Assembly (NCBI GenBank): GCA_913061235.1
Contig: CAJXTB010000005.1
Span: forward strand, 186,001 to 250,000
DNA from: an uncultured Pseudomonadota bacterium
GTDB lineage: Bacteria > Myxococcota_A > UBA796 > GCA-2862545
Length of the DNA: 64,000 nucleotides
Reading direction: 5' to 3'
The notes beneath the pieces are model-generated. The model did not search any database and was not told the DNA's origin. It saw only the letters and a program-made list of their open reading frames with translations. A program made the translations under genes and the position numbers. Below, piece by piece: positions 16-45,371 of the stretch; the stretch's first letter is position 1, and each line of letters opens with the position of its first letter.

Positions 16-1371
16 ATGGACTTTTTCGAAACCACAGATGATGTCGATCAGCAGCTGCTGGACGTTCGCCGGCAGCTAGACCTGCTACACGGGGACGTTC
101 CGCGGGGTGTGTCGCTGAGTCGGCTGAAGACCCAATCGCCGTTCCACCCGATTCTCATATTGCGGTTGTTGTTTGCCGCGGCGGCAGCCCTCTGCCTAGT
201 GGCGGCATTCGCCGCTTTAATCGTTCCTTATCTGAGCTTTCTTGACACCGGAATTGCGGAGACCGTACGGCGTGTTGAGATGGCTATGGGCGGCACACCG
301 CTTCCCGTCGCGCTCGCCGGTGGTGGGGGGTTGCTGTTGATTGCGTGGTTCGCTGTTGATCAATCGGCTGTTGCCATTGGTCGCGGAAGCACGTTCACCA
401 ACGCTGAAGCACGTGAAAACGACCGACTCAACTCGGAAGTTTCACGCCTCACCCGCCAAAGAGACTTGGTGAAGCGCGCCCACAGCACCCCAATGGCAGC
501 AGTGGCTCGGTATGAAGTTCCCGACCGGGAGCCAGCGAGCCAGATCCCGTCGCTGTACGAACGACCCAAGCCCGCGCCGAGCTACCTGTCGCCGCCATCC
601 ATGCCGCCCCAGGTCGCACCGCCGACCCAGCGCGCTGGCACTCCGCTCCCGGCTGCTCGCAGTGGACACGACGGCTACGCGAGATTTCGGACCCCGGCGA
701 CCAATGGACGAGAAGTCGTCCCAATCGCGAAGCCCACCTTCATCTCTCTACAGCCACAAGACAGGCGGCGGGACGAGGAACCGGGCATTGAAACCCCGAC
801 CGACCAGTACGCTTCTGCAAGCTACTCATCCCCGCCTGACGACCATCAGTACGTGGTTGACGAAACAGAGGATGGACTGACAGCCTCTACCCACCGCGCA
901 GACATCGCGTACGTTGTGGACAGCCACTCGGAGCAAGGGACCTTCAATCGCCGCGTATCGAGTGACATCCCTGCCCTCGCCCGGGTGAGTGAAGAGTGGC
1001 TCTCCGATGCCATCCGAAAAGCCAGCTACCTTGCCGGGTCCTTCCCCATCCAAGCGCGGCTCGAGTTCAGCCAAGACCAGCACGTCCCGTTCACTCTCGT
1101 TCTGGAACGTGCGACACCCGCCATGGCTGTTCGAGCCATGATGGCATTCGTCGAGTTCTTGTCGACCATTTCCTTGCCGCGTAAGGCGCGCATCGATCTC
1201 ATCAGCGTTGCTCACCTCGACCGAACGTTCCATCGCAATGTGCGCTCAGCCTGCATTCCGTATTTTCCAGGCGCTGTGACCATTGCGAATGAGCCGGGTC
1301 GCATCGAGTTGACCTTCGGCAATCCCGACCCCCGTTGGGACCGCTACCCCGTCCTCCCCGTCAGCCAATAG
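16..1371 (+). CDS. Hypothetical two-TM protein with Pro-rich linker
   Basis: This 451-residue protein has no family I recognise. It shows two hydrophobic helices at about residues 46-70 and 97-115. A short charged, coiled-coil-like stretch follows (about 125-155), then a long Pro/Ser-rich linker (about 165-310) and a compact C-terminal domain (about 315-451) with alternating hydrophobic strands. An in-frame stop lies just upstream of the ATG, so the start is inside the window. It ends about 25 nt before the E1 gene, so co-transcription with the dehydrogenase operon is likely. The layout suggests a membrane-anchored scaffold, but function is unknown. Confidence 0.75.
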   Translation: MDFFETTDDVDQQLLDVRRQLDLLHGDVPRGVSLSRLKTQSPFHPILILRLLFAAAAALCLVAAFAALIVPYLSFLDTGIAETVRRVEMAMGGTPLPVALAGGGGLLLIAWFAVDQSAVAIGRGSTFTNAEARENDRLNSEVSRLTRQRDLVKRAHSTPMAAVARYEVPDREPASQIPSLYERPKPAPSYLSPPSMPPQVAPPTQRAGTPLPAARSGHDGYARFRTPATNGREVVPIAKPTFISLQPQDRRRDEEPGIETPTDQYASASYSSPPDDHQYVVDETEDGLTASTHRADIAYVVDSHSEQGTFNRRVSSDIPALARVSEEWLSDAIRKASYLAGSFPIQARLEFSQDQHVPFTLVLERATPAMAVRAMMAFVEFLSTISLPRKARIDLISVAHLDRTFHRNVRSACIPYFPGAVTIANEPGRIELTFGNPDPRWDRYPVLPVSQ

Positions 1372-1395
1372 TTCCCACCCCAGGTGGAGGCCACC

Positions 1396-3600
1396 ATGGC
1401 CGTGTCACGCGTCGCCATTGTCGACGCCAACTTCACCGCGCGCGTCCAAGCGATGCGCGCTACCCCTCCATTCGGCAACCTCGCCGCTCCCATCCGTCCA
1501 GGCTCTGCCCTGACAGCGCGCATGGCGGTTGCCCTCTTTGAAGCTCAGATTGAGTCGCGAATGTGCGACATCTGGTCACGTGCCCTCAAAGCGGACGGTC
1601 AGAGCTTCTACACCATCGGTGGCTCTGGCCATGAGGGCAATGCGGCCATCGGTGCGGTGCTGAAGAGCGATGACTGGGCGTTCTTGCACTACCGAAGCGG
1701 CGCCTTGTTCTGCGCAAGAGCCAAGTTAGCGGCGGGTCCAGAGGGCCCACTCGACGTCTTGTTGGGATGCGTTGCCAGCAGTGATGAGCCCATTGCAGGA
1801 GGCCGCCACAAGGTCTTCGGGTCCGTCCCGCTCAACATCCCTCCACAGACCTCCACCATCGCCTCACAGCTCCCCAAGGCTGTTGGGTTTGCTGTGGCCA
1901 ACGACCGAAAGGCACGAATCGAAGGAAAGCGCGCCAGCGGTATCGCGGTGTGCACCTTTGGAGACGCCTCAGCGAACCACTCTACGGCCACAGGTGCGGT
2001 GAACTCCGCCATCTGGGCTGGCCACCAGAACGTCCCCACTCCGGTGTTGTTCGTGTGTGAGGACAACGGGTTCGGTATCAGTGTACGAACGCCCGAAAAC
2101 TGGATTGCCTCCGCATACGGGGCTCGCCCAGGCCTCGCCTACTTTGCAGCGGACGGACTGGACCTAGTCGCCGCTTATGACGCTGCAAAGGCCGCCACTG
2201 ACTACGTCCGCGAACGTCGCCGCCCTGCGTTCCTGCACCTGTCCGTCGTTCGACTACTCGGACACGCAGGCTCCGATGTTGAGCAGCTGTACCGTACGCA
2301 AGACGAGATTGAAGCCGCAGAAGAGCAAGACCCGCTCATCAAGACCGCCCAGTTATTGGTCGATGCCGGGGTGATGACTCCCGAAGACGTACTCGCGCTG
2401 TACGAGGACGCCCGTGAGCGCCTAGGCGCTATGGCCGCTGAAGCCGTGCGTCGTCCGAAGCTCACCACAGCTGAAGCCGTCATGGCCCCGCTCTTCACGG
2501 ACACTGACGCCAGCGCTGCGGTACCTGTTGCGAGCACCGAAGTACGCGCAGCCACTTTTCGACGCCTGCCCGAAGCCGACGAACGTCCACGACATCTGGC
2601 ATTCCAGCTCAATCGCGCGCTGACAGATGTCATGGCGGGTGCCCCCGAGACCGTTCTGTTTGGCGAAGACGTAGCCAGAAAGGGTGGCGTCTACCATGTC
2701 ACCGCGGACCTCACCAAGCGCTTCGGCGTGGGTCGAGTCTTCAACACGTTGCTGGATGAACAGACCATTCTGGGTCTCGCTATTGGCGCCACCCATGCAG
2801 GCCTGACCCCTATTCCAGAGGTCCAGTACCTAGCGTACTTGATGAACGCCATCGACCAGCTCCGCGGTGAAGCGGGCTCCATGCAGTTCTTCAGCAATGG
2901 CCAACTCAACAATGGAATGGTCGTACGCATTGCCGGACTCGCCTACCAGAAAGGGTTCGGTGGCCACTTCCACAACGACAACGGCATTGCGGCACTGCGC
3001 GAAGTTCCGGGCATGCTCATCGGCTGTCCCTCACGCGCCGAAGACGGCGTACTCATGCTGCGCACGTTGATTGCGCACGCACGAGCAAACGGTCGCGTCA
3101 GCGTCCTGTTGGAGCCTATCGCTCGCTACATGACCAAGGACCTACACGAAGACGGTGACGGCGGCTGGCTGGACGCCTACCCAAGCCCCGAGCAGCACAT
3201 GCCGCTGGGCGAAGTTCGTGTCTACGGTGACGGGACTGACCTCACCATCGCAAGCTACGCCAATGGACTGTGGATGAGCTTGCGCGTGGCTGAACGGCTC
3301 CGGTCAGAAGGTATCAACGCCCGCGTGGTCGACCTACGCTGGCTCGCCCCCTTGCCGATCGACGCCCTTGTCCCACACGTTGAAGCGACTGGCAAGCTGC
3401 TGGTTGTGGACGAGTGCCGGCGGAGTTCCGGCATTGCAGACACAGTCGCCGCTGAGATCTACGAGCGTGTTCCCTCCGTTCGGGTCCGCCGCGTAATGGC
3501 ACCGGACACCTACATTCCGCTTGGCGACGCCGCAAACCTTGTACTGGTTTCCGAAGCCGACATCGAAGACGGCGTGCGCCGCTTGCTGGAGGCGAAATGA
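1396..3600 (+). CDS. 2-oxoacid dehydrogenase E1, alpha-beta fusion
   Basis: This is a thiamine-diphosphate-dependent E1 of the pyruvate / branched-chain 2-oxoacid dehydrogenase type, with alpha (about 1-370) and beta (about 388-734) subunits in one 734-residue chain. The alpha half has the ThDP/Mg motif starting GDAS at about 189, with Asn 194, followed by CEDNGFGIS near 221. The beta half has FGEDVA near 422, the GGVYHVT stretch and the IPEVQYLAY stretch typical of E1 beta. An in-frame GTG lies at 1384, but GGAGG at 1386-1390 sits 5 nt before the ATG at 1396, which I prefer. The substrate (pyruvate or branched-chain) cannot be fixed. No E2 or E3 gene is in the window. It overlaps the acyltransferase gene by 4 nt. 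Confidence 0.92.
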   Translation: MAVSRVAIVDANFTARVQAMRATPPFGNLAAPIRPGSALTARMAVALFEAQIESRMCDIWSRALKADGQSFYTIGGSGHEGNAAIGAVLKSDDWAFLHYRSGALFCARAKLAAGPEGPLDVLLGCVASSDEPIAGGRHKVFGSVPLNIPPQTSTIASQLPKAVGFAVANDRKARIEGKRASGIAVCTFGDASANHSTATGAVNSAIWAGHQNVPTPVLFVCEDNGFGISVRTPENWIASAYGARPGLAYFAADGLDLVAAYDAAKAATDYVRERRRPAFLHLSVVRLLGHAGSDVEQLYRTQDEIEAAEEQDPLIKTAQLLVDAGVMTPEDVLALYEDARERLGAMAAEAVRRPKLTTAEAVMAPLFTDTDASAAVPVASTEVRAATFRRLPEADERPRHLAFQLNRALTDVMAGAPETVLFGEDVARKGGVYHVTADLTKRFGVGRVFNTLLDEQTILGLAIGATHAGLTPIPEVQYLAYLMNAIDQLRGEAGSMQFFSNGQLNNGMVVRIAGLAYQKGFGGHFHNDNGIAALREVPGMLIGCPSRAEDGVLMLRTLIAHARANGRVSVLLEPIARYMTKDLHEDGDGGWLDAYPSPEQHMPLGEVRVYGDGTDLTIASYANGLWMSLRVAERLRSEGINARVVDLRWLAPLPIDALVPHVEATGKLLVVDECRRSSGIADTVAAEIYERVPSVRVRRVMAPDTYIPLGDAANLVLVSEADIEDGVRRLLEAK

Positions 3601-33814: not shown

Positions 33815-34029
33815 GCTTTCGTCAACGGCGCAGTCAACACCAAGGTCCCGTTCACCGGAAGCATGGCGAAACCGTGGGATTCTTGCCGTGAGCCCGTCGC
33901 GACCACCTCAACGCCGGCCAAGGACTCAGGCACATCGCCGTCTATCTGGAGACGCATGCCGTCCGACGTGACCAAGACCCAAGCACCCATGCCGATGTCA
34001 ACACGCTCAAGGCGTCCGTGAACGGTCAT
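33811..34029 (-). CDS. Small hypothetical protein, 72 residues
   Basis: This 72-residue beta-rich protein (VHGRLERVDIGMGAWVLVT, then the QIDGDVPESLAG stretch) has no recognisable family. The start overlaps the stop of the subtilisin gene by 4 nt (ATGA), which supports real coupled translation. It shares the stop-codon CTAG with the convergent CoA transferase gene. Confidence 0.6.
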   Translation of the reverse strand: MTVHGRLERVDIGMGAWVLVTSDGMRLQIDGDVPESLAGVEVVATGSRQESHGFAMLPVNGTLVLTAPLTKA

Positions 34030-35738
34030 TCGGCCCCCTTCTGGTCGAGCTGTTCGCTACCGGCGAGGGACAGCGCCACAAGTCCAGCCACAACGCTGTT
34101 GCAAACGAGCCAAGCCGAACCCCAGCTGCCACTCATCAACCACGGCTCCACGGACTGGGTCGCGGCGGCGTGAAGCAGCACTCCCCCCACACCCGCACAC
34201 ACGCCAATGAGTATTGGACGCACCCGACGAACCCCTGCGAGTGGGAGCGCCAGCGCGAGCGGCAACGCCGCCGAATAAACGAACGGAACACGGGCGGCCC
34301 ACGCTCCGAGAAGCGTGGAGGGCCAGGTCAGTAGACCATCGCTCAACAGCGCTACCCACCAACGGCCTGACAGACCCGGCAGGTTGTCGAGGAAGAACAG
34401 ACCTCCCGCGGTCAAACCTCCGATAGCTGCAGCCGTCATCCAGAAGCGCTTACGTGCGCCAGCGAGTGACGCAATCGCACCCGCCGCCAAGGCACCTAGG
34501 AAGAACCGGAAGGCTCGCCAGTAGTCGCCCGTTGCGGACAGAGCGCGCTCTAGGTCGAGGGTACCGTGGCCCATCGCTTCGTCCCAGACGTCGCCATGTG
34601 CGCTTGTAAGCAGGGTCTCCTCTACACAGTCGGGGCCACATGTTCCCGTCGACAAGAGCACCGCAGCAGCGCCTGCAACGTGAGGAGCCGCCATGGAGGT
34701 GCCTTGGAGCTCGCGGTACGCATGACCGCCGGGCGCAATGGTGTCTTGTAGAACACCGCCGCCAGCGATGCGCGTGTCACCACCCGGTGCGGCGATGTCT
34801 ACGCCCTCACCAAAAGACGAATACGGGGCCCGGGTTCCGTCCGGGCCCGTCGCACCCACGCCAATCGTCTCGGAGAGCGCTCCGGGCCAGGAGACGCCTC
34901 GCCGGCCCGAGTTGCCAGCAGCGGCAATGACCACAACGCCTTGTTCACGCGCCTTGCGAATCGCTGTGTGTACAACCAGGGAGTAGCTGCCACCGAGGGA
35001 TAGATTGATGACGTCCGCGCCTTCGTCTACGGCGTAGTCGATACCCGCAGCAATGCCCTCCGACGTGCCAGAGCCCGACGCGCTGAGCACCTTGACCGGC
35101 AGAATCGTGGCCAGCGGAGCCACGCCGGCAACGCCGATGCCGTTGTTCGTCGACTGGGCAATCGTGCCAGCCACATGGGTGCCATGCCCATTGTCGTCCT
35201 GCGCGGATGTCACGCCAGGTACAAAGCTCGCCCCCTCCAACACACGGTCGGCATCCAGATCTTCCACGACCGACACGCCGGTATCAATGACCGCGACAAC
35301 AATGCCCTCGCCCTGTGGTGTCTTTGCCCAACCAGCGGGGGCGCCCATGGCCATCAGGTGCCACTGCTTGTCGAGCATCGGGTCGTTCGGGTAGCCGAGC
35401 ATATGAAGCTGTACAGACGGCTCAACCACCTCGACTCGCACATCATCTACAAGCATTGCCACTGCTGCAGCAATGTCCGGTACCGCCGCATGCGCCAGGC
35501 CGTCGTCTTCGGCCAGTGGGTGGACCCAACGCAGGTCGACTCCGAGGAGGGCCCCGACGCTAGCAAGGTCTGCGTCCGTAGAACCGTCCACCATATCGAC
35601 GACCAACTGACCCGGACCTCCCGTCGAAACCACAGCGGGAACCTCTGGAAGCACACGATCTGGAGACATCCAACCCGTCCCGAGAACCCCCGCAGCAACG
35701 GCCACAAGCCCAGCGAGTGTCATGGTTGCACGGTTCAT
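34026..35738 (-). CDS. Subtilisin-like serine protease with C-terminal membrane domain
   Basis: The protein has 570 residues. The N-terminal signal or anchor is at about 6-25. A propeptide-like region follows (about 40-115), then a peptidase S8 domain with catalytic Asp152 (VIDTGV), His185 (NGHGTHVAG), oxyanion Asn276 (AAGNSG) and Ser348 (GTSMAAPH). After about residue 395 come four to five transmembrane helices to the C terminus, so the protease should face the periplasm while tied to the inner membrane. GGAGG lies 7 nt before ATG 35738. It is divergent from the caspase-like gene across about 106 bp. The substrate is unknown. Confidence 0.95.
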   Translation of the reverse strand: MNRATMTLAGLVAVAAGVLGTGWMSPDRVLPEVPAVVSTGGPGQLVVDMVDGSTDADLASVGALLGVDLRWVHPLAEDDGLAHAAVPDIAAAVAMLVDDVRVEVVEPSVQLHMLGYPNDPMLDKQWHLMAMGAPAGWAKTPQGEGIVVAVIDTGVSVVEDLDADRVLEGASFVPGVTSAQDDNGHGTHVAGTIAQSTNNGIGVAGVAPLATILPVKVLSASGSGTSEGIAAGIDYAVDEGADVINLSLGGSYSLVVHTAIRKAREQGVVVIAAAGNSGRRGVSWPGALSETIGVGATGPDGTRAPYSSFGEGVDIAAPGGDTRIAGGGVLQDTIAPGGHAYRELQGTSMAAPHVAGAAAVLLSTGTCGPDCVEETLLTSAHGDVWDEAMGHGTLDLERALSATGDYWRAFRFFLGALAAGAIASLAGARKRFWMTAAAIGGLTAGGLFFLDNLPGLSGRWWVALLSDGLLTWPSTLLGAWAARVPFVYSAALPLALALPLAGVRRVRPILIGVCAGVGGVLLHAAATQSVEPWLMSGSWGSAWLVCNSVVAGLVALSLAGSEQLDQKGAE

Positions 35739-35844: not shown

Positions 35845-36906
35845 ATGCTGCTGCGAACTGCCCTTCTCATGGGATTCATTTCCGCGGCCCACGCGCAAGA
35901 CGCCCCCCAAGGCCAGCGCGTAGCCGTCGTTATCGGCTTGTCGTCGTACAACTCATTGCCTGACGCCGTCGAGCTCGACTTCGCCCGCTCTGATGCGGCC
36001 CAGGTTGCAAAATCGCTCGAAGACACGGCCCATTTTGATCACGTCTTTCTCTTAGGAGACGGCGAGGCAGACCGCGAGAGCATTCGGCAGACCTTGCGCA
36101 CGGAAGTCGCGCAGCTGATCGGCCCGAATGATACTTTCCTATTGTACTTCGCCGGACATGGTATCGGCGCAGACCTCGGAATCCCTACGTTCCTCGCCTA
36201 CGACTCCACACTCGAGAACGGCCAAGAAGATGGCTTGGTGCTCGACTCTTTTGCACGAGACCTCGGTGTATGGACGGGTGCAGGGCACTCCATCATCGTC
36301 ACCGACGCCATTCACCGCAATCAGCTCGATGGCATTTACTTTTACGGCCCAGCAGCAACGGACTGGCCCACAACACGACCACGCACCGCCATCATCAGTT
36401 CCTCAGAGTCCCAAGAGCCAGCAATTGACGGCGCCTTCGGTGCGGTGTTCACCCAGGCCATCTCCGGTGCCGCAGACGCGAATGACGACTTCAACGTCAC
36501 CGTCAGCGAGATGTTCACCTTCGTTCACGACCAGCTCGGCCCAACCGGGCAGCTGCCGGTCATGGTGGGCGACTTCGACCCGAACATCGTGATCTCCACC
36601 GGTGTTGAACGCAGCTCTGTCGCGATTAGCCAGACTGAGGTTGAGCCAGTCAACGCCTACCCAGACGTCGACATCGACAAGGCCAAGTTCGTGTTTCTTG
36701 AAGGCCAAGCCCAGACGGTGACCTGTCCCAATGTGCCGGTCAAGACCTGTGCCCCCTCTTGCTATGTGTGGGGCTTCAAGGGCGGTGACTGTACGGTCTC
36801 AGCGGTGATTGACGGCTACGCCATGCAGGGCGAAGCGGTCGTCCTGTCACGCGGTCGCTACGAGTGCACCCGGCAAGGTCCCAACCTGGTGTGTACCGGG
36901 CCCTAA
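35845..36906 (+). CDS. Secreted caspase-fold protein, catalytic Cys missing
   Basis: This 353-residue protein has a signal peptide (about 1-17, ending AHA). It has the N half of a bacterial C14 caspase: VAVVIGLSSYNSLP, the LDFARSDAAQVAKSLE helix and the LLYFAGHG strand with the catalytic His105. The usual DxC strand reads IIVTDAIHRNQ, with Ile156 where the catalytic Cys should be, so it should be inactive as a protease. The C-terminal region (about 270-353) is a separate domain with six Cys, probably disulfide-bonded. It is likely periplasmic. The stop shares CTAA with the stop of the convergent cNMP-like gene. Confidence 0.88.
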   Translation: MLLRTALLMGFISAAHAQDAPQGQRVAVVIGLSSYNSLPDAVELDFARSDAAQVAKSLEDTAHFDHVFLLGDGEADRESIRQTLRTEVAQLIGPNDTFLLYFAGHGIGADLGIPTFLAYDSTLENGQEDGLVLDSFARDLGVWTGAGHSIIVTDAIHRNQLDGIYFYGPAATDWPTTRPRTAIISSSESQEPAIDGAFGAVFTQAISGAADANDDFNVTVSEMFTFVHDQLGPTGQLPVMVGDFDPNIVISTGVERSSVAISQTEVEPVNAYPDVDIDKAKFVFLEGQAQTVTCPNVPVKTCAPSCYVWGFKGGDCTVSAVIDGYAMQGEAVVLSRGRYECTRQGPNLVCTGP

Positions 36907-37829
36907 ACCCGGGATGTGATTTCCTCGAAGATACTGTTCTTGGCCTGAATCAAGATGGGTAGCTCAACAACAGCAGATGCCATCCCCTGGATGACTGCGA
37001 GAGCAAGATCATCGTGGGTCTCCATGTTTTCGACCATCGCCTGAACAGGAAGCGAGAGCGTCACTACGTCGGTCTTGGCCACTGCGGTGAACGACATCTT
37101 GTGCAGGACCAAGTGGTCGAGAAACCCGAGTGTCGTCGGCGGAAGCGCCTCAGCAGACTTACCGTCTTGCTGGGTGCATGTCACACGTCCACGGGCAACG
37201 AGAATGCCGCTCTGAGTGACGTCCCCCGCTGTCCACAGCGTCTCGCCGGCCACGTATCGGCGCTCTGTCATCTGACGAGCCACTGGGGCCATGGTGTCGA
37301 GTCCAACGCGTCCCACCAGGTCACCACTGGACAGCAGAATCAACCGGTCCAACAACGACACTGTCGCATCATCGCCAATCTCCACCGGATTCTTCGGAGG
37401 CCGCGGCAGCAGCCCAACGGTCGCCACCACAGCCGCACCCAGGCGGCCCAGCAAGCTGACGAGTCCACGCCGCCCAGACATGAGCATGTCCAGCATGTGC
37501 TCAACGGGGACTTCGAGCACCAAGCCACCTGTCAGGACCTTGAGCTCCGTACCTGGTGTTCGTCCGGCCAACGCTTCGATGAGGCCAACCGGACTTGGCG
37601 GGTCGAACGGCGGAAATGTGTGACCATTGCGGGTGCGCTGGATGATGGCATCCACTGCAACCCACACCACATTCGCGGCCTCATCTTCCCGCAACAAGAC
37701 CTCACCATCCCGTACGACTCGCTCCCGCGAGACCTCGGCCAAACGGCGAACATTGTCTTGAAAGTCGGAAGGAGCAATGCGGGAGAACAGCAGCACGCGG
37801 TCGAGTGGAGATAGCTGTCGTGCCTTCAT
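36903..37829 (-). CDS. Degenerate cyclic-nucleotide-binding-like protein
   Basis: This 308-residue protein appears to contain two divergent cNMP-binding-like beta barrels: residues about 15-115 (VVRDGEVLLREDEAANVVWVAVD) and about 160-265 (YVAGETLWTAGDVTQSGILVARGRVTC). I see no proper phosphate-binding cassette (FGExAL-RAA). The second ends in helical LSLPVQAMVENMETHDDLALAVIQGMAS. The start overlaps the stop of the Npt1/HEAT gene by 4 nt. In related bacteria, translocase, HEAT and cNMP parts can be fused in one protein; here they are separate genes. Ligand binding is unproven. Confidence 0.72.
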   Translation of the reverse strand: MKARQLSPLDRVLLFSRIAPSDFQDNVRRLAEVSRERVVRDGEVLLREDEAANVVWVAVDAIIQRTRNGHTFPPFDPPSPVGLIEALAGRTPGTELKVLTGGLVLEVPVEHMLDMLMSGRRGLVSLLGRLGAAVVATVGLLPRPPKNPVEIGDDATVSLLDRLILLSSGDLVGRVGLDTMAPVARQMTERRYVAGETLWTAGDVTQSGILVARGRVTCTQQDGKSAEALPPTTLGFLDHLVLHKMSFTAVAKTDVVTLSLPVQAMVENMETHDDLALAVIQGMASAVVELPILIQAKNSIFEEITSRV

Positions 37830-40447
37830 ACCGCTCCTACTCTCGCCAGCAGGTCTCTCTGGGCTTCGGCAAGCTCGCGAACCGTACCACTGTTGTCGGT
37901 CATCATGTCGTCCAAGAGCTGGTCATAGCTCCGTTCCCTCGCAGAGGGTCGCGGCACGAGCAGACGCTCGGCAGCTGCGGCAATGGCTGCCCATTCGCCG
38001 TCGGTGGACGCTTCTAGGAGCTCAATACTACTGATGACGGTCTGCCGGTCTATTGAGCTGAGCCCGCGGGAGATAGAGTGGAAGTCCTCGTCAGTGTGGC
38101 TCAGACCGAACACTCGGGTGGCACGCTGAACCGCGTGACGCTGCCGCTCTCCCATCAGGCGGACCAGCATTGGATGGGCACGGTTTCGAACCTGCGGGCT
38201 GGCCTCAGCCCCGAGCTCAAGTTCGCTCGCCAACTCGGCATAGCGCTCCGCCGCTTCCAAGTGGTCTCGTACGACGTGCGCGAGAGTCGCTGAGTCAGGG
38301 CGCGCCTCTGGCCACTCTAAGACCATGGTCTCAAGCGCGCACAGCACCCGGTACGCGACCACACCCGTGTGCTCGCGTACGAGCTGCTCGGTCAAGAATG
38401 AGAGCGCAGATGGCCCCATATTTGCGAGCACCCGGGGTAGCTCCCGTCGAACCGCCAGCGACACGTTCGGGTCCCTGAGCATGGCTGCGCTCGGGGGTAC
38501 AGCGTCGTCTCCAAGCTGTACCAGTACCTCCCGAGCCGCGAGCACAAAGTCTCGCCGGCCGAGCGCCTCAACAATGATGCTCGTGCAGGCAACGTCGTGT
38601 GTTGCCCCCATGGCCCGAAGAGCAGCTTCCCCAATCAGCCCGTCTTGCCGGGACAGGACCACGAGTACTTCTCGCAATGCACCGGTCATCTCGAAGGAGT
38701 CGGTGCGGAAGGACACCGTGCGCAGGAACTCCAGCTGACAGCTTGGGCCGTAGCTGTGAACACGGTCTACCAGCCTACGCTGTGCACTCTGTGGCTCCGT
38801 TCCCAACATCAGCAGCTCTGCAGCAGCCACTGCACGCGATGCAGGCCGGTCGTCCTCCACAATAATCCGCAGCGCTGCGACATCGGGTGCTAGGCGGAAC
38901 CGAGCACGGACCAAGGCACCAACCCGACCCGCCAGCGGGTTGCTTTGAGTCGCTACCGCCGCGAGCAACCGGTCGATGGTTGGCACCACATCCACGCGCC
39001 CAGCCTCGGCAAACACACGGCAGGCATCCGCCACAACCGCACCAGACGGATGATGGAGAATCAACGACGGAATAATGGAGGTCTTACCCTGCCGATGCAG
39101 GATGTTCATCGCCACAACCACGTCTCGGTCGACGTCACTGTTCAGTGCGCCAAGCAGCGTCTCAACCGATGCCAAGTCGAGATCTGTCCGGGCGGTCGAC
39201 GCCAACCGGCTGACCGAGCGTAGAGACCGTCGAAACAGGTCCAGGTAGGGCTGCCGCATCCGGACTGCCACAACAATCCACGCCGCTGCGCTGACCATCA
39301 ACAGCACCCCAAGGACATTGGAGCCGCCGCCAAGCCACAACACGACCAGTACGGCTCCCGACGCCATAATCTGACCACCGCGATGCCCAGCAACATCGAT
39401 GAGTCGCTTGACCGGCCCACGCACATCCGGAAGCATGGGCACGTACAACAACTCGGTCACGGTGCGGTGCAAGGTGTGCTTAAACAAGCCATCTATGGCG
39501 CGCAGTCCAATTGCTGCTGGCAGGGTGCCAAGGGCAACAACGCCGGCCGCAGCAAGTGCTGTGAGGCTGGGGGTCATTGCGCTCACGGTGTTTAGCTGCA
39601 GGCGGTTGATCAGGGGTGTCACAAGGGCAAGCTGAACGAATAACGAGCCCACATTCAACGCCAGGTAGACCACAGCGAAGGTCGATGCCAAGTTCTCAGC
39701 GTCTACGGCCTCCGCGACCGTGGCCTTGAAGACAAAATCCGAGAACGTGAACACTACGGCGGCAAGAACAACAATCGCTGCGACGTACTTTGGATACGGG
39801 TGTGTACGCAGCGCAACAGCGCCGTCGCGAAGCCGAGGTTCCACCGTTTGAGTGGACTTGGCGACACCACCACCGAGAGACATCCAGCCAAAGATGCCCG
39901 CAAGGACAAAGCCCGCAGCCGCAACCAGTAGCAAGTAGCGGGCGTTGAATGTCTGGGCTGCGACAGTCGCTATGGCCGAGCCGGCGATTGCTCCCGACAC
40001 GCTGCCTGCACCAATAAAGGCGAACTGCCGCTTGGCATTTCGAATATCAATGGTACTCGACAACAACGTCCAAAACTGAACAATGAGGACTGAGCCAAGC
40101 ACGCTCGAGTACACATAGAGGATGAACAGCCACGACTGGCTCTGCGACCGCCCAATTGCAGCGAAGATTCCCACATAGACCAACGCGCCGAAGACCGCGG
40201 TCAACGCAAAGGCCGTGCCAGGCGCGAATCGCGAGAACACCCCTCGCATGGCCCGAATCGCGAGCAGCGCGCCAATGCCGACCGTCGCATACATCCATGG
40301 AAGGCGCGACGACGGGATGGACGCCAAGAACAACGCGTCTCGAGCGGTCTCTGCAACCGTGTGCCCCGCCGTCGTCATTCCAAGCACCGCAAAAGCGGCC
40401 CATCGGGATGTGGTCGCTGCGGACGATGCTGGGGACGGCTGGGACAT
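37826..40447 (-). CDS. Npt1-like translocase domain fused to HEAT repeats
   Basis: This 873-residue protein has about 12 transmembrane helices in residues 15-410 with the pattern of Npt1/Npt2 (ATP/ADP antiporter-like MFS) proteins: SSTIDIRNAKRQFAFIGAGSVSGAIAGS, and a LRAIDGLFKHTLHRTVTELLYVP stretch. The remainder (about 430-873) is a helical repeat region of HEAT type (units such as LVDRVHSYGPSCQLEFLR and AALRAMGATHDVACTSIIVEALG). Npt1 proteins in Chlamydia and Rickettsia swap ATP for ADP; free-living relatives have unknown substrates. It is translationally coupled to the cNMP-like gene. Confidence 0.83.
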   Translation of the reverse strand: MSQPSPASSAATTSRWAAFAVLGMTTAGHTVAETARDALFLASIPSSRLPWMYATVGIGALLAIRAMRGVFSRFAPGTAFALTAVFGALVYVGIFAAIGRSQSQSWLFILYVYSSVLGSVLIVQFWTLLSSTIDIRNAKRQFAFIGAGSVSGAIAGSAIATVAAQTFNARYLLLVAAAGFVLAGIFGWMSLGGGVAKSTQTVEPRLRDGAVALRTHPYPKYVAAIVVLAAVVFTFSDFVFKATVAEAVDAENLASTFAVVYLALNVGSLFVQLALVTPLINRLQLNTVSAMTPSLTALAAAGVVALGTLPAAIGLRAIDGLFKHTLHRTVTELLYVPMLPDVRGPVKRLIDVAGHRGGQIMASGAVLVVLWLGGGSNVLGVLLMVSAAAWIVVAVRMRQPYLDLFRRSLRSVSRLASTARTDLDLASVETLLGALNSDVDRDVVVAMNILHRQGKTSIIPSLILHHPSGAVVADACRVFAEAGRVDVVPTIDRLLAAVATQSNPLAGRVGALVRARFRLAPDVAALRIIVEDDRPASRAVAAAELLMLGTEPQSAQRRLVDRVHSYGPSCQLEFLRTVSFRTDSFEMTGALREVLVVLSRQDGLIGEAALRAMGATHDVACTSIIVEALGRRDFVLAAREVLVQLGDDAVPPSAAMLRDPNVSLAVRRELPRVLANMGPSALSFLTEQLVREHTGVVAYRVLCALETMVLEWPEARPDSATLAHVVRDHLEAAERYAELASELELGAEASPQVRNRAHPMLVRLMGERQRHAVQRATRVFGLSHTDEDFHSISRGLSSIDRQTVISSIELLEASTDGEWAAIAAAAERLLVPRPSARERSYDQLLDDMMTDNSGTVRELAEAQRDLLARVGAV

Positions 40448-43400: not shown

Positions 43401-44048
43401 ATGCAAAAGTGGTGGCTCATTGGAGCCGGCGTAGTCGGTGTGGTGCTTGCGGTGGTCTTGCTCGGTCGTCCGTTGGACACCGGTGGCGAAATCACCACCA
43501 TGACAGATGGTCCGGTCACCCTGACCGAGGACGGTGAAGGTGCCCAACCCGGAGGCCTCGTTCGCGACGCCGCTGGCAATCCCGTTGTGGCGGACCCGCA
43601 AGAGGTCGCAGCAGGCGTGACGGCATCGGACCTTCCCGTTCGGGTTGGCGGCCAAGCCATGGTTCGTCCTGGCTTCACGCCACCTGACCCCAGCAAGATG
43701 GTCGCGGGTGCCAACCCCATGGCTCAGCGCGCTGCGGCTCGCCGGGACACACCAGAGGCCCGTCTTGCAGCCCAGACAACAGCCCCCTGGACGCAAGTCC
43801 GCCGTGAGCTCGCCAAGGCAGCTGGAGATGACCCGACCGCTGGTGCGCTGATCGGAGACGTGCAGACGCACCTCGATGACCTGCGCTCAACCCAGCGCGA
43901 CCCCCAAGCTATCGACTTTGATGACGTCGCAAGGCGGCAGTCCGAGCTCTCCGCTCGGGTCCGTCAGAGCCCGTACTACAACTCGGAAGTGGAGCGCATG
44001 TTGGTGCTCGTTGAAGAGCGGGTCAAGACCTACCAGGCCGAGCAGTAG
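43401..44048 (+). CDS. Hypothetical single-TM anchored protein
   Basis: This 215-residue protein has an N-terminal transmembrane helix (about 4-22) and a long, probably periplasmic part that is Ala/Gly/Pro-rich to about 120, then helical (about 130-215, with a QSELSARVRQSPYYNSEVERM segment). No family is recognised. AGGAGG lies 6 nt before ATG 43401; a second in-frame ATG at 43380 lacks a site. It is divergent from dam and shares its GATC-rich upstream region. Confidence 0.72.
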   Translation: MQKWWLIGAGVVGVVLAVVLLGRPLDTGGEITTMTDGPVTLTEDGEGAQPGGLVRDAAGNPVVADPQEVAAGVTASDLPVRVGGQAMVRPGFTPPDPSKMVAGANPMAQRAAARRDTPEARLAAQTTAPWTQVRRELAKAAGDDPTAGALIGDVQTHLDDLRSTQRDPQAIDFDDVARRQSELSARVRQSPYYNSEVERMLVLVEERVKTYQAEQ

Positions 44049-44111
44049 GTCCAGAGACGCGACGGTGACGTTCATGCGCTAAAGGGTCTCCCCGTACTTG
44101 AGGAGATGAGC

Positions 44112-45371
44112 ATGGCCTTCAATCGACGCGTCTTTGTACTTGGTGGACACATCACACCGTTCATCGGCAAGAAGCACCCCGACTTCATCTGGAAGCGGCA
44201 CCCCGACTTCGGAAAGCGTGAGAACCCCACGCTCGAAGAGACCATTTCGGCTGCCGTCAACGGGGCCCTCGACGCCACGGGCACGCCCGCTGAGCTCGTC
44301 GACAAAGCCTGGATCGGTAACTTCGTCGGAGAGCTGTTCAGCAACCAGGGCCACCTGGGCGCTGCGGTCGTGGGCTCCAACCCAGGGCTGATGTACAAGC
44401 CCGTCATGCGTGTAGAGGGCGCTTGCGCCTCGGGTGGACTTGCCCTCGCCTGCGCTGTGGATGCGATTCAAGCCGGCAATGACATCACGTTGGTCGTGGG
44501 CGCCGAGATCCAGACCACCGCGTCAGCACGGACAGGTGGCGACTACTTGGCCCGTGCCTCTCACTACGCTCGCCAGCGGGAGTTGGACGACTTCACCTTC
44601 CCCGCTCTGTTCGCTTGGCGCAACAAGCACATCCTCGCTGAGACCGACACCACTGAAGAAGACATCGGTCGCGTCTCCGTCAAGGCCTACGCCAACGCCA
44701 ACAAGAATGACAAGGCCCACATGAAGGCCGTGTCCCTCGACCTGGCCACCGCACGCGAAGCGGGTCCGAACAACCCGAACTTCCTGGCCAACGAAGAGCT
44801 CGCTCCGTTCATGAAGATGAGTGATTGCTCACAGGTCTCTGACGGCGGCGCTGGGCTCATCCTGGTCAGCGAAGAAGGCTTGCGCAAGCTCGGTAAGGCC
44901 CCAGCAGACGCCACCGAGTTGGTGTCCCTGGCCCAAGTGACCGGCAACCTGTACGACGACGGCAATCCATTGCGTATGGACGCGACCGCCAATGCCCTGT
45001 GCAAGGCCTACGCTGGCGCTGGCATTACCTCCAAGGACCTTCAGGTCGCCGAAGTCCATGACTGCTTCGCGGTCACTGAGCTGCTGATGTACGAAGCCAT
45101 GGGCCTCGCAGAGCCCGGCAAGGGCTTCCAGCTTGTCCGTGAAGGACGCACCGAGCTCACTGGAGACATTCCGGTCAACACCGGCGGCGGACTCATTGGC
45201 TTTGGTCACCCAGTGGGTGCAACGGGCGTCAAGCAGGTGCTCGAAGTGCACCGTCAGATGCGTGGCGAATGCGGAGCTTACCAGCTCGCCAAGAAGCCGA
45301 CCCTGGGTGCCACGGTCAACATGGGCGGCAATGACAAGACTGTCGTCGCCACCATTCTTCGCACCACCTAA
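44112..45371 (+). CDS. Thiolase-family acetyl-CoA acetyltransferase (SCP2-type)
   Basis: This 419-residue enzyme has the thiolase nucleophile Cys in VEGACASGG, the EVHDCFAVTE stretch with His and the C-terminal GGGLIGFGHPVGATG motif. The pattern is that of the SCP2-type/lipid-transfer thiolase group rather than classic AtoB. It would cleave 3-oxoacyl-CoA or condense acetyl-CoA. AGGAG at 44101-44105 directly abuts an ATG at 44106, so translation from ATG 44112 (6-nt spacing) is more likely. Confidence 0.93.
   Translation: MAFNRRVFVLGGHITPFIGKKHPDFIWKRHPDFGKRENPTLEETISAAVNGALDATGTPAELVDKAWIGNFVGELFSNQGHLGAAVVGSNPGLMYKPVMRVEGACASGGLALACAVDAIQAGNDITLVVGAEIQTTASARTGGDYLARASHYARQRELDDFTFPALFAWRNKHILAETDTTEEDIGRVSVKAYANANKNDKAHMKAVSLDLATAREAGPNNPNFLANEELAPFMKMSDCSQVSDGGAGLILVSEEGLRKLGKAPADATELVSLAQVTGNLYDDGNPLRMDATANALCKAYAGAGITSKDLQVAEVHDCFAVTELLMYEAMGLAEPGKGFQLVREGRTELTGDIPVNTGGGLIGFGHPVGATGVKQVLEVHRQMRGECGAYQLAKKPTLGATVNMGGNDKTVVATILRTT

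Follow-up and report, generated by a model that had tools for sequence, protein, structure and literature searches.

A probable exported pseudo-orthocaspase family without the catalytic cysteine in one bacterial order

The window analysed here, a stretch of 64,000 nucleotides from an uncultured bacterium (contig CAJXTB010000005.1, positions 186,001 to 250,000), encodes a caspase-fold protein in which isoleucine stands in the place of the catalytic cysteine, and its relatives within one bacterial order share the loss. Judged from the sequences, cysteine-protease activity has almost certainly been lost in this pseudo-caspase family. A binding or regulatory role is quite probable for it, given its conservation and the precedents of FLIP(L), T. 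brucei MC4, and SyOC. Taken as a whole, the best explanation is a vertically inherited, exported pseudo-orthocaspase that works by binding and not by cutting, which we consider probable.

The pseudo-caspase gene (35845..36906, plus strand) starts with ATG and encodes 353 amino acids (aa). Pfam Peptidase_C14 covers residues 25-232 (E=1.6e-9; 38.3 bits against a cut-off of 21.4) and is matched by 30/30 orthologues at E<=0.1. The original prediction described a secreted caspase-fold protein with an intact YFAGHG motif around His105 and with Ile156, within VTDAIHRNQ, where the cysteine belongs. The open reading frame (ORF) bears out both motifs (His105 at 36157..36159 and Ile156, codon ATT, at 36310..36312, both plus strand), and the Peptidase_C14 match above its cut-off agrees with the fold. 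Compared with the His-Cys dyad of active orthocaspases and metacaspases, the histidine is present and the cysteine absent; with Ile156 replacing one dyad residue of a p20 homologue, the protein is probably a pseudo-orthocaspase. Residues 1-17, before Gln18 (35845..35895, plus strand), form a hydrophobic segment that ends in AHA-Q, the pattern of a signal peptide with a predicted cleavage site, and both the segment and the AxA site recur in orthologues. These signal-peptide-like N-termini support export of the pseudo-caspase, as had been claimed; that it stays in the periplasm, as opposed to going further out, is what we infer. Scans around the gene found no promoter and a single terminator-like site, where 0.9 were expected.

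Structure prediction likewise points to a caspase fold. A model built from three input sequences has a mean pLDDT of 58; at that confidence it aligns to caspase-fold structures, among them Arabidopsis metacaspase 4 (6w8s_C; Z 16.4, 194 residues, 3.5 A), with the alignment extending to residue 253 of the model. His105 and Ile156 come after modelled strands 97-104 and 148-154, respectively. Sequence relatives of the pseudo-caspase in the PDB are only weak fragments, namely the C14 protein GSU0716 (3bij) and two calcium-binding entries, and a PDB sequence search with one Cys-bearing paralogue found no relative.

Matches to the pseudo-caspase occur in 52 of the 58 related genomes searched, the window's own genome included. 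The 30 best-matching ORFs form the alignment used for orthologue counts, from which L040 and L041 were left out as duplicates of L011 and L021; a contig scan for further loci returned two, both duplicates of contigs already found. Position 156 in this alignment is Ala in 16 sequences, Ile in 10, Val in three, Ser in one, and Cys in none. The flanking Asp154 is present in 30/30 and His157 (36313..36315, plus strand) in 29/30, and the dyad position 105 is His in 26, Gln in three, and Glu in one. With nine further members and three more orthologues added to the 30, cysteine is absent from position 156 in 42/42 members examined, all from one bacterial order; matches in the order at E ~1e-15 to 1e-21 fall mostly outside this count. 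The ratio dN/dS is 0.058-0.274 in the 18 closest pairs, indicating purifying selection. Conservation of a non-cysteine residue among orthologues had been named as the outcome that would support the pseudoprotease reading, and the alignment delivers it: no cysteine in 42 members, purifying selection, and, close to the former active site, residues that are invariant in this clade only.

Two simpler accounts can be weighed against these counts. The first, that the gene is decaying or carries a sequencing error, draws on the assembly of this genome in 72 contigs; we reject decay because the frame is open in 30/30 orthologues and dN/dS is well below 1, which leaves this account with a practically negligible probability. 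The second is that a catalytic cysteine sits elsewhere in the same fold, which the original prediction had itself named as the refuting case. Three orthologues do have a single Cys aligned with residue 146, but the caspase domain holds no Cys at all in the other 27 of 30, the window protein among them. Its six cysteines are residues 294, 302, 306, 316, 341, and 350, all C-terminal to the caspase domain, which makes a catalytic Cys at another place in its caspase fold impossible. A shifted cysteine is therefore rejected for the window protein, with a chance close to nil.

Phylogenetic analysis separates the pseudo-caspases from their Cys-bearing relatives. We built a first tree from 39 pseudo-caspase rows and 11 Cys-bearing relatives, a chosen sample to which the window's genome contributes five. 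The two dyad columns were excluded and no root was inferred. One branch of this tree separates all pseudo rows from the Cys-bearing rows with an SH-aLRT of 99. A second tree, likewise without an inferred root and without L001, L002, and L028 (long branches or odd composition), recovers the same split at 99/99, and the split appears in 100% of 200 bootstrap trees. This well-supported branch fits a single loss, and on these alignments the cysteine was apparently lost once in the pseudo-caspase family.

Within the order, a profile of the 30 sequences reaches E<=1e-15 in 46/63 genomes and E<=1e-90 in 37 of those 46. Outside the order, among 377 genomes sampled over the phylum with five candidates scored per genome, its matches are no better than 1.2e-32 and cover the caspase part only. 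Genome G031 has two tandem pseudo-caspase genes (L099; 8487-9788 and 9671-11005, minus strand) and a third on another contig (L104), and Cys is absent in all of them. Divergent pseudo-caspases of family f6 (L105, L106, and L107) lie right after a thiolase gene.

The residues around the former active site raise the question of whether the protein is still an enzyme, with its caspase fold refitted around another active site (e.g., Asp154, Asp110, and His157) for a different substrate. Asp110, Asp154, and Trp174 are present in 39/39 pseudo rows and His157 in 36/39; at those columns Asp110 and Trp174 occur in 0/11 Cys-bearing rows and His157 in 1/11. The absence of Asp110 from the Cys-bearing rows, together with the near-invariance of the two Asp and His157 in the pseudo rows, speaks for such a refitted enzyme. 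Against it, the residue at the nucleophile position varies (Ala, Ile, Val, or Ser), and His105 itself is replaced in 7/39. Moreover, no invariant clade-specific Ser or Thr was found in the pseudo rows: position 185 is Ser in 35/39, but it is also Thr or Ser in 9/11 Cys-bearing rows. We therefore regard a refitted enzyme as quite improbable. An acidic residue (Asp or Glu) occupies position 50 in 36/39 pseudo rows, and this position and Asp154 may correspond to two Asp of the T. brucei MC2 pocket.

The window's genome also encodes caspase-fold proteins of the ordinary kind: six other C14 matches exceed the family cut-off, all with the Cys of the DxC motif. Five Cys-bearing caspase-fold proteins outside the window (L001, L002, L003, L004, and L007) have signal-peptide-like N-termini, and by eye their long C-terminal regions resemble outer-membrane barrels. 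The pseudo-caspase may be a decoy or inhibitor of the same cell's exported Cys-bearing proteins and form pairs with them in the manner of FLIP(L) and caspase-8, a precedent drawn from the available text of PMC7586951. The presence of five candidate partners with signal-peptide-like N-termini speaks for this form of binding; none of them, however, is a close relative of the pseudo clade, and none is encoded inside the window. We consider a decoy unlikely and retain the broader reading of a binding or regulatory protein.

Two further features of the protein bear on what it may bind. Residues 211-222 (36475..36510, plus strand) form an EF-hand-type loop of 12 residues with acidic positions 1, 5, and 12. 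The pattern is present in 30/30 orthologues, and Pfam EF-hand_5 matches 12/30 at E<=0.1. A similar EF-type stretch is found at the corresponding position of several Cys-bearing paralogues, so the loop is not confined to proteins that lack the Cys.

The second feature is a C-terminal beta domain (36664..36903, plus strand) with six cysteines, conserved in 30/30 orthologues. Modelled alone, it gives a small beta fold of eight strands with a pLDDT of 93.8. Comparison with PDB folds gave no clear match: the best structural Z is 6.8, and Foldseek returned nothing at E<=0.001. Set against paracaspases, which join an immunoglobulin domain to the caspase domain, the chains matched are a mixture of Ig-like and transthyretin-like ones. 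Searched with its own profile, the C-terminal domain turns up in 45/60 genomes of the order; in a phylum-wide sample of 282 genomes (19 candidates per genome), 37 have it at E<=1e-5, and all 37 belong to the order. Among some 40 matches listed to other carriers of the domain, ten were fetched, and Pfam identifies every one of them as a Ser/Thr kinase. A hydrophobic segment in these kinases separates the kinase domain from the C-terminal domain, which retains four of the six Cys and an AG-x-C-x-V motif. The window's own genome encodes one such transmembrane Ser/Thr kinase outside the window (L126, G000:C18; ORF 1210-2922, minus strand), whose outer domain is the C-terminal domain of the pseudo-caspase with four Cys. 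The claim that a Cys-rich C-terminal domain is kept alongside the lost nucleophile therefore stands in part: the six Cys are there, but 'kept' is unconfirmed, as the only other copy found in this genome belongs to that kinase and not to another caspase. The domain profile gave no match in two of the three genomes with family f6 pseudo-caspases (L105, L106, and L107) and a separate weak match only in the third.

The genes near the pseudo-caspase were compared across 36 loci (the window, L074-L107, and L113), a set in which short contigs hide some neighbours. SMP, a small protein with a single membrane segment at its N-terminus (43401..44048, plus strand), lies 6.4 kb downstream in the window and has no Pfam or NCBIfam match. 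It is near the pseudo-caspase in 21/36 loci, and in 12/36 its gene immediately precedes the pseudo-caspase, in the same orientation and no more than 80 bases away; none was found beside the three f6 genes. Eighteen of the 21 nearby SMPs are seeds of the profile used for counting, and those of L077, L079, and L089 were found by it. When SMP profiles were compared, one group joined each of the other four (94.0-97.2%), and three of the ten group pairs failed (0.3-2.9%). SMP occurs in 44/63 genomes, including 11 of the 26 without a full-length pseudo-caspase, and was missed by the profile in four of the 37 with one; in two of these genomes, G057 and G061, the locus analysis does show an SMP. These counts do not support an obligate partnership, and SMP is a linked neighbour and a candidate partner. 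A second linked neighbour, a thiolase (44106..45371, plus strand; Thiolase_C_1, E=1.5e-32; start codon uncertain), lies 7.1 kb downstream and is near the pseudo-caspase in 22/36 loci. On the other side, an S8 subtilase (34026..35723, minus strand; PF00082, E=8.4e-51; start chosen by script) is divergent and adjacent in 7/36 loci, each of which belongs to the same family as the window. About 120 bases separate the subtilase and the pseudo-caspase in the window, and the subtilase has several hydrophobic C-terminal segments. Downstream of the pseudo-caspase, an 873-residue membrane protein (37826-40447, minus strand) has a sub-threshold match to the TLC ATP/ADP transporter family (PF03219, E=2.3e-4), and the gene beside it (36903-37829, minus strand) has two cyclic-nucleotide-binding domain matches.

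We conjecture the following mechanism for a pseudo-caspase that binds. The caspase fold, in which an acid at position 50 and the Asp that precedes the lost Cys persist, would serve as a platform, and the clade-specific Asp110, His157, and Trp174 would touch a partner. Calcium may steady or gate the protein. The C-terminal domain would dock it to the envelope ligand or site that the transmembrane Ser/Thr kinases recognise with their outer domain, and a tether may be provided by SMP, whose gene neighbours that of the pseudo-caspase in many relatives. The likely targets would be the same cell's exported Cys-bearing caspase-fold proteins or the kinases. Tethering by SMP is a tentative possibility and a link to the kinases a more doubtful one. 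It is tempting to speculate further that all these parts form an extracytoplasmic signalling module, in which the dead caspase would be a calcium-responsive ligand or co-receptor, with a recognition domain common to transmembrane Ser/Thr kinases and tethered by a dedicated SMP; so complete a scheme is decidedly unlikely. If true, this module would be a bacterial counterpart of control by a receptor and a pseudo-caspase. The family ties a dead bacterial caspase to export, a calcium-type loop, a receptor-like-kinase domain, and a neighbouring anchor protein, and these ties make the role of a dead caspase in a bacterium approachable by direct pull-down and deletion tests.

Pseudo-orthocaspases are already known. 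According to the available text of PMC6426788, 858 of 9,994 bacterial orthocaspases lack one or both dyad residues, and a pseudo-orthocaspase is a p20 homologue in which a dyad residue is replaced and which has neither a p10 domain nor proteolytic activity. As far as that text goes, those reported come mostly from Alphaproteobacteria and Cyanobacteria, their common dyads include YS, YA, FS, QC, and HA, and two Asp of the T. brucei MC2 pocket are conserved in them. Precedents for a binding or regulatory role include T. brucei MC4 (PMC6426788) and SyOC of Synechocystis (PMC7889975), both as described in the text available. A literature search for pseudo-orthocaspases or caspase pseudoenzymes in Myxococcota, with partial coverage of the literature, returned no paper on the window protein's family among the matches listed.

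Like the bacterial pseudo-orthocaspases in those texts (PMC6426788; SyOC, PMC7889975), the window protein is a p20 homologue with a replaced residue of the His-Cys dyad, retained by a bacterial lineage. Unlike those reported there, this family mostly pairs His with Ala, Ile, or Val, carries an EF-hand-type loop and a six-Cys C-terminal domain in common with kinases, and belongs to one other bacterial order. It resembles the transmembrane Ser/Thr kinases of its own order (e.g., L126) in the C-terminal outer domain, with four aligned Cys and the AG-x-C-x-V motif, but those have a kinase domain and a membrane segment instead of an exported caspase domain and lack two of the six Cys. Likewise, the human pseudo-caspase FLIP(L), as presented in the available text of PMC7586951, is a dead caspase fold thought to act by binding; FLIP(L), however, works inside animal cells on caspase-8, whereas the window protein is bacterial and, by its N-terminus, exported.
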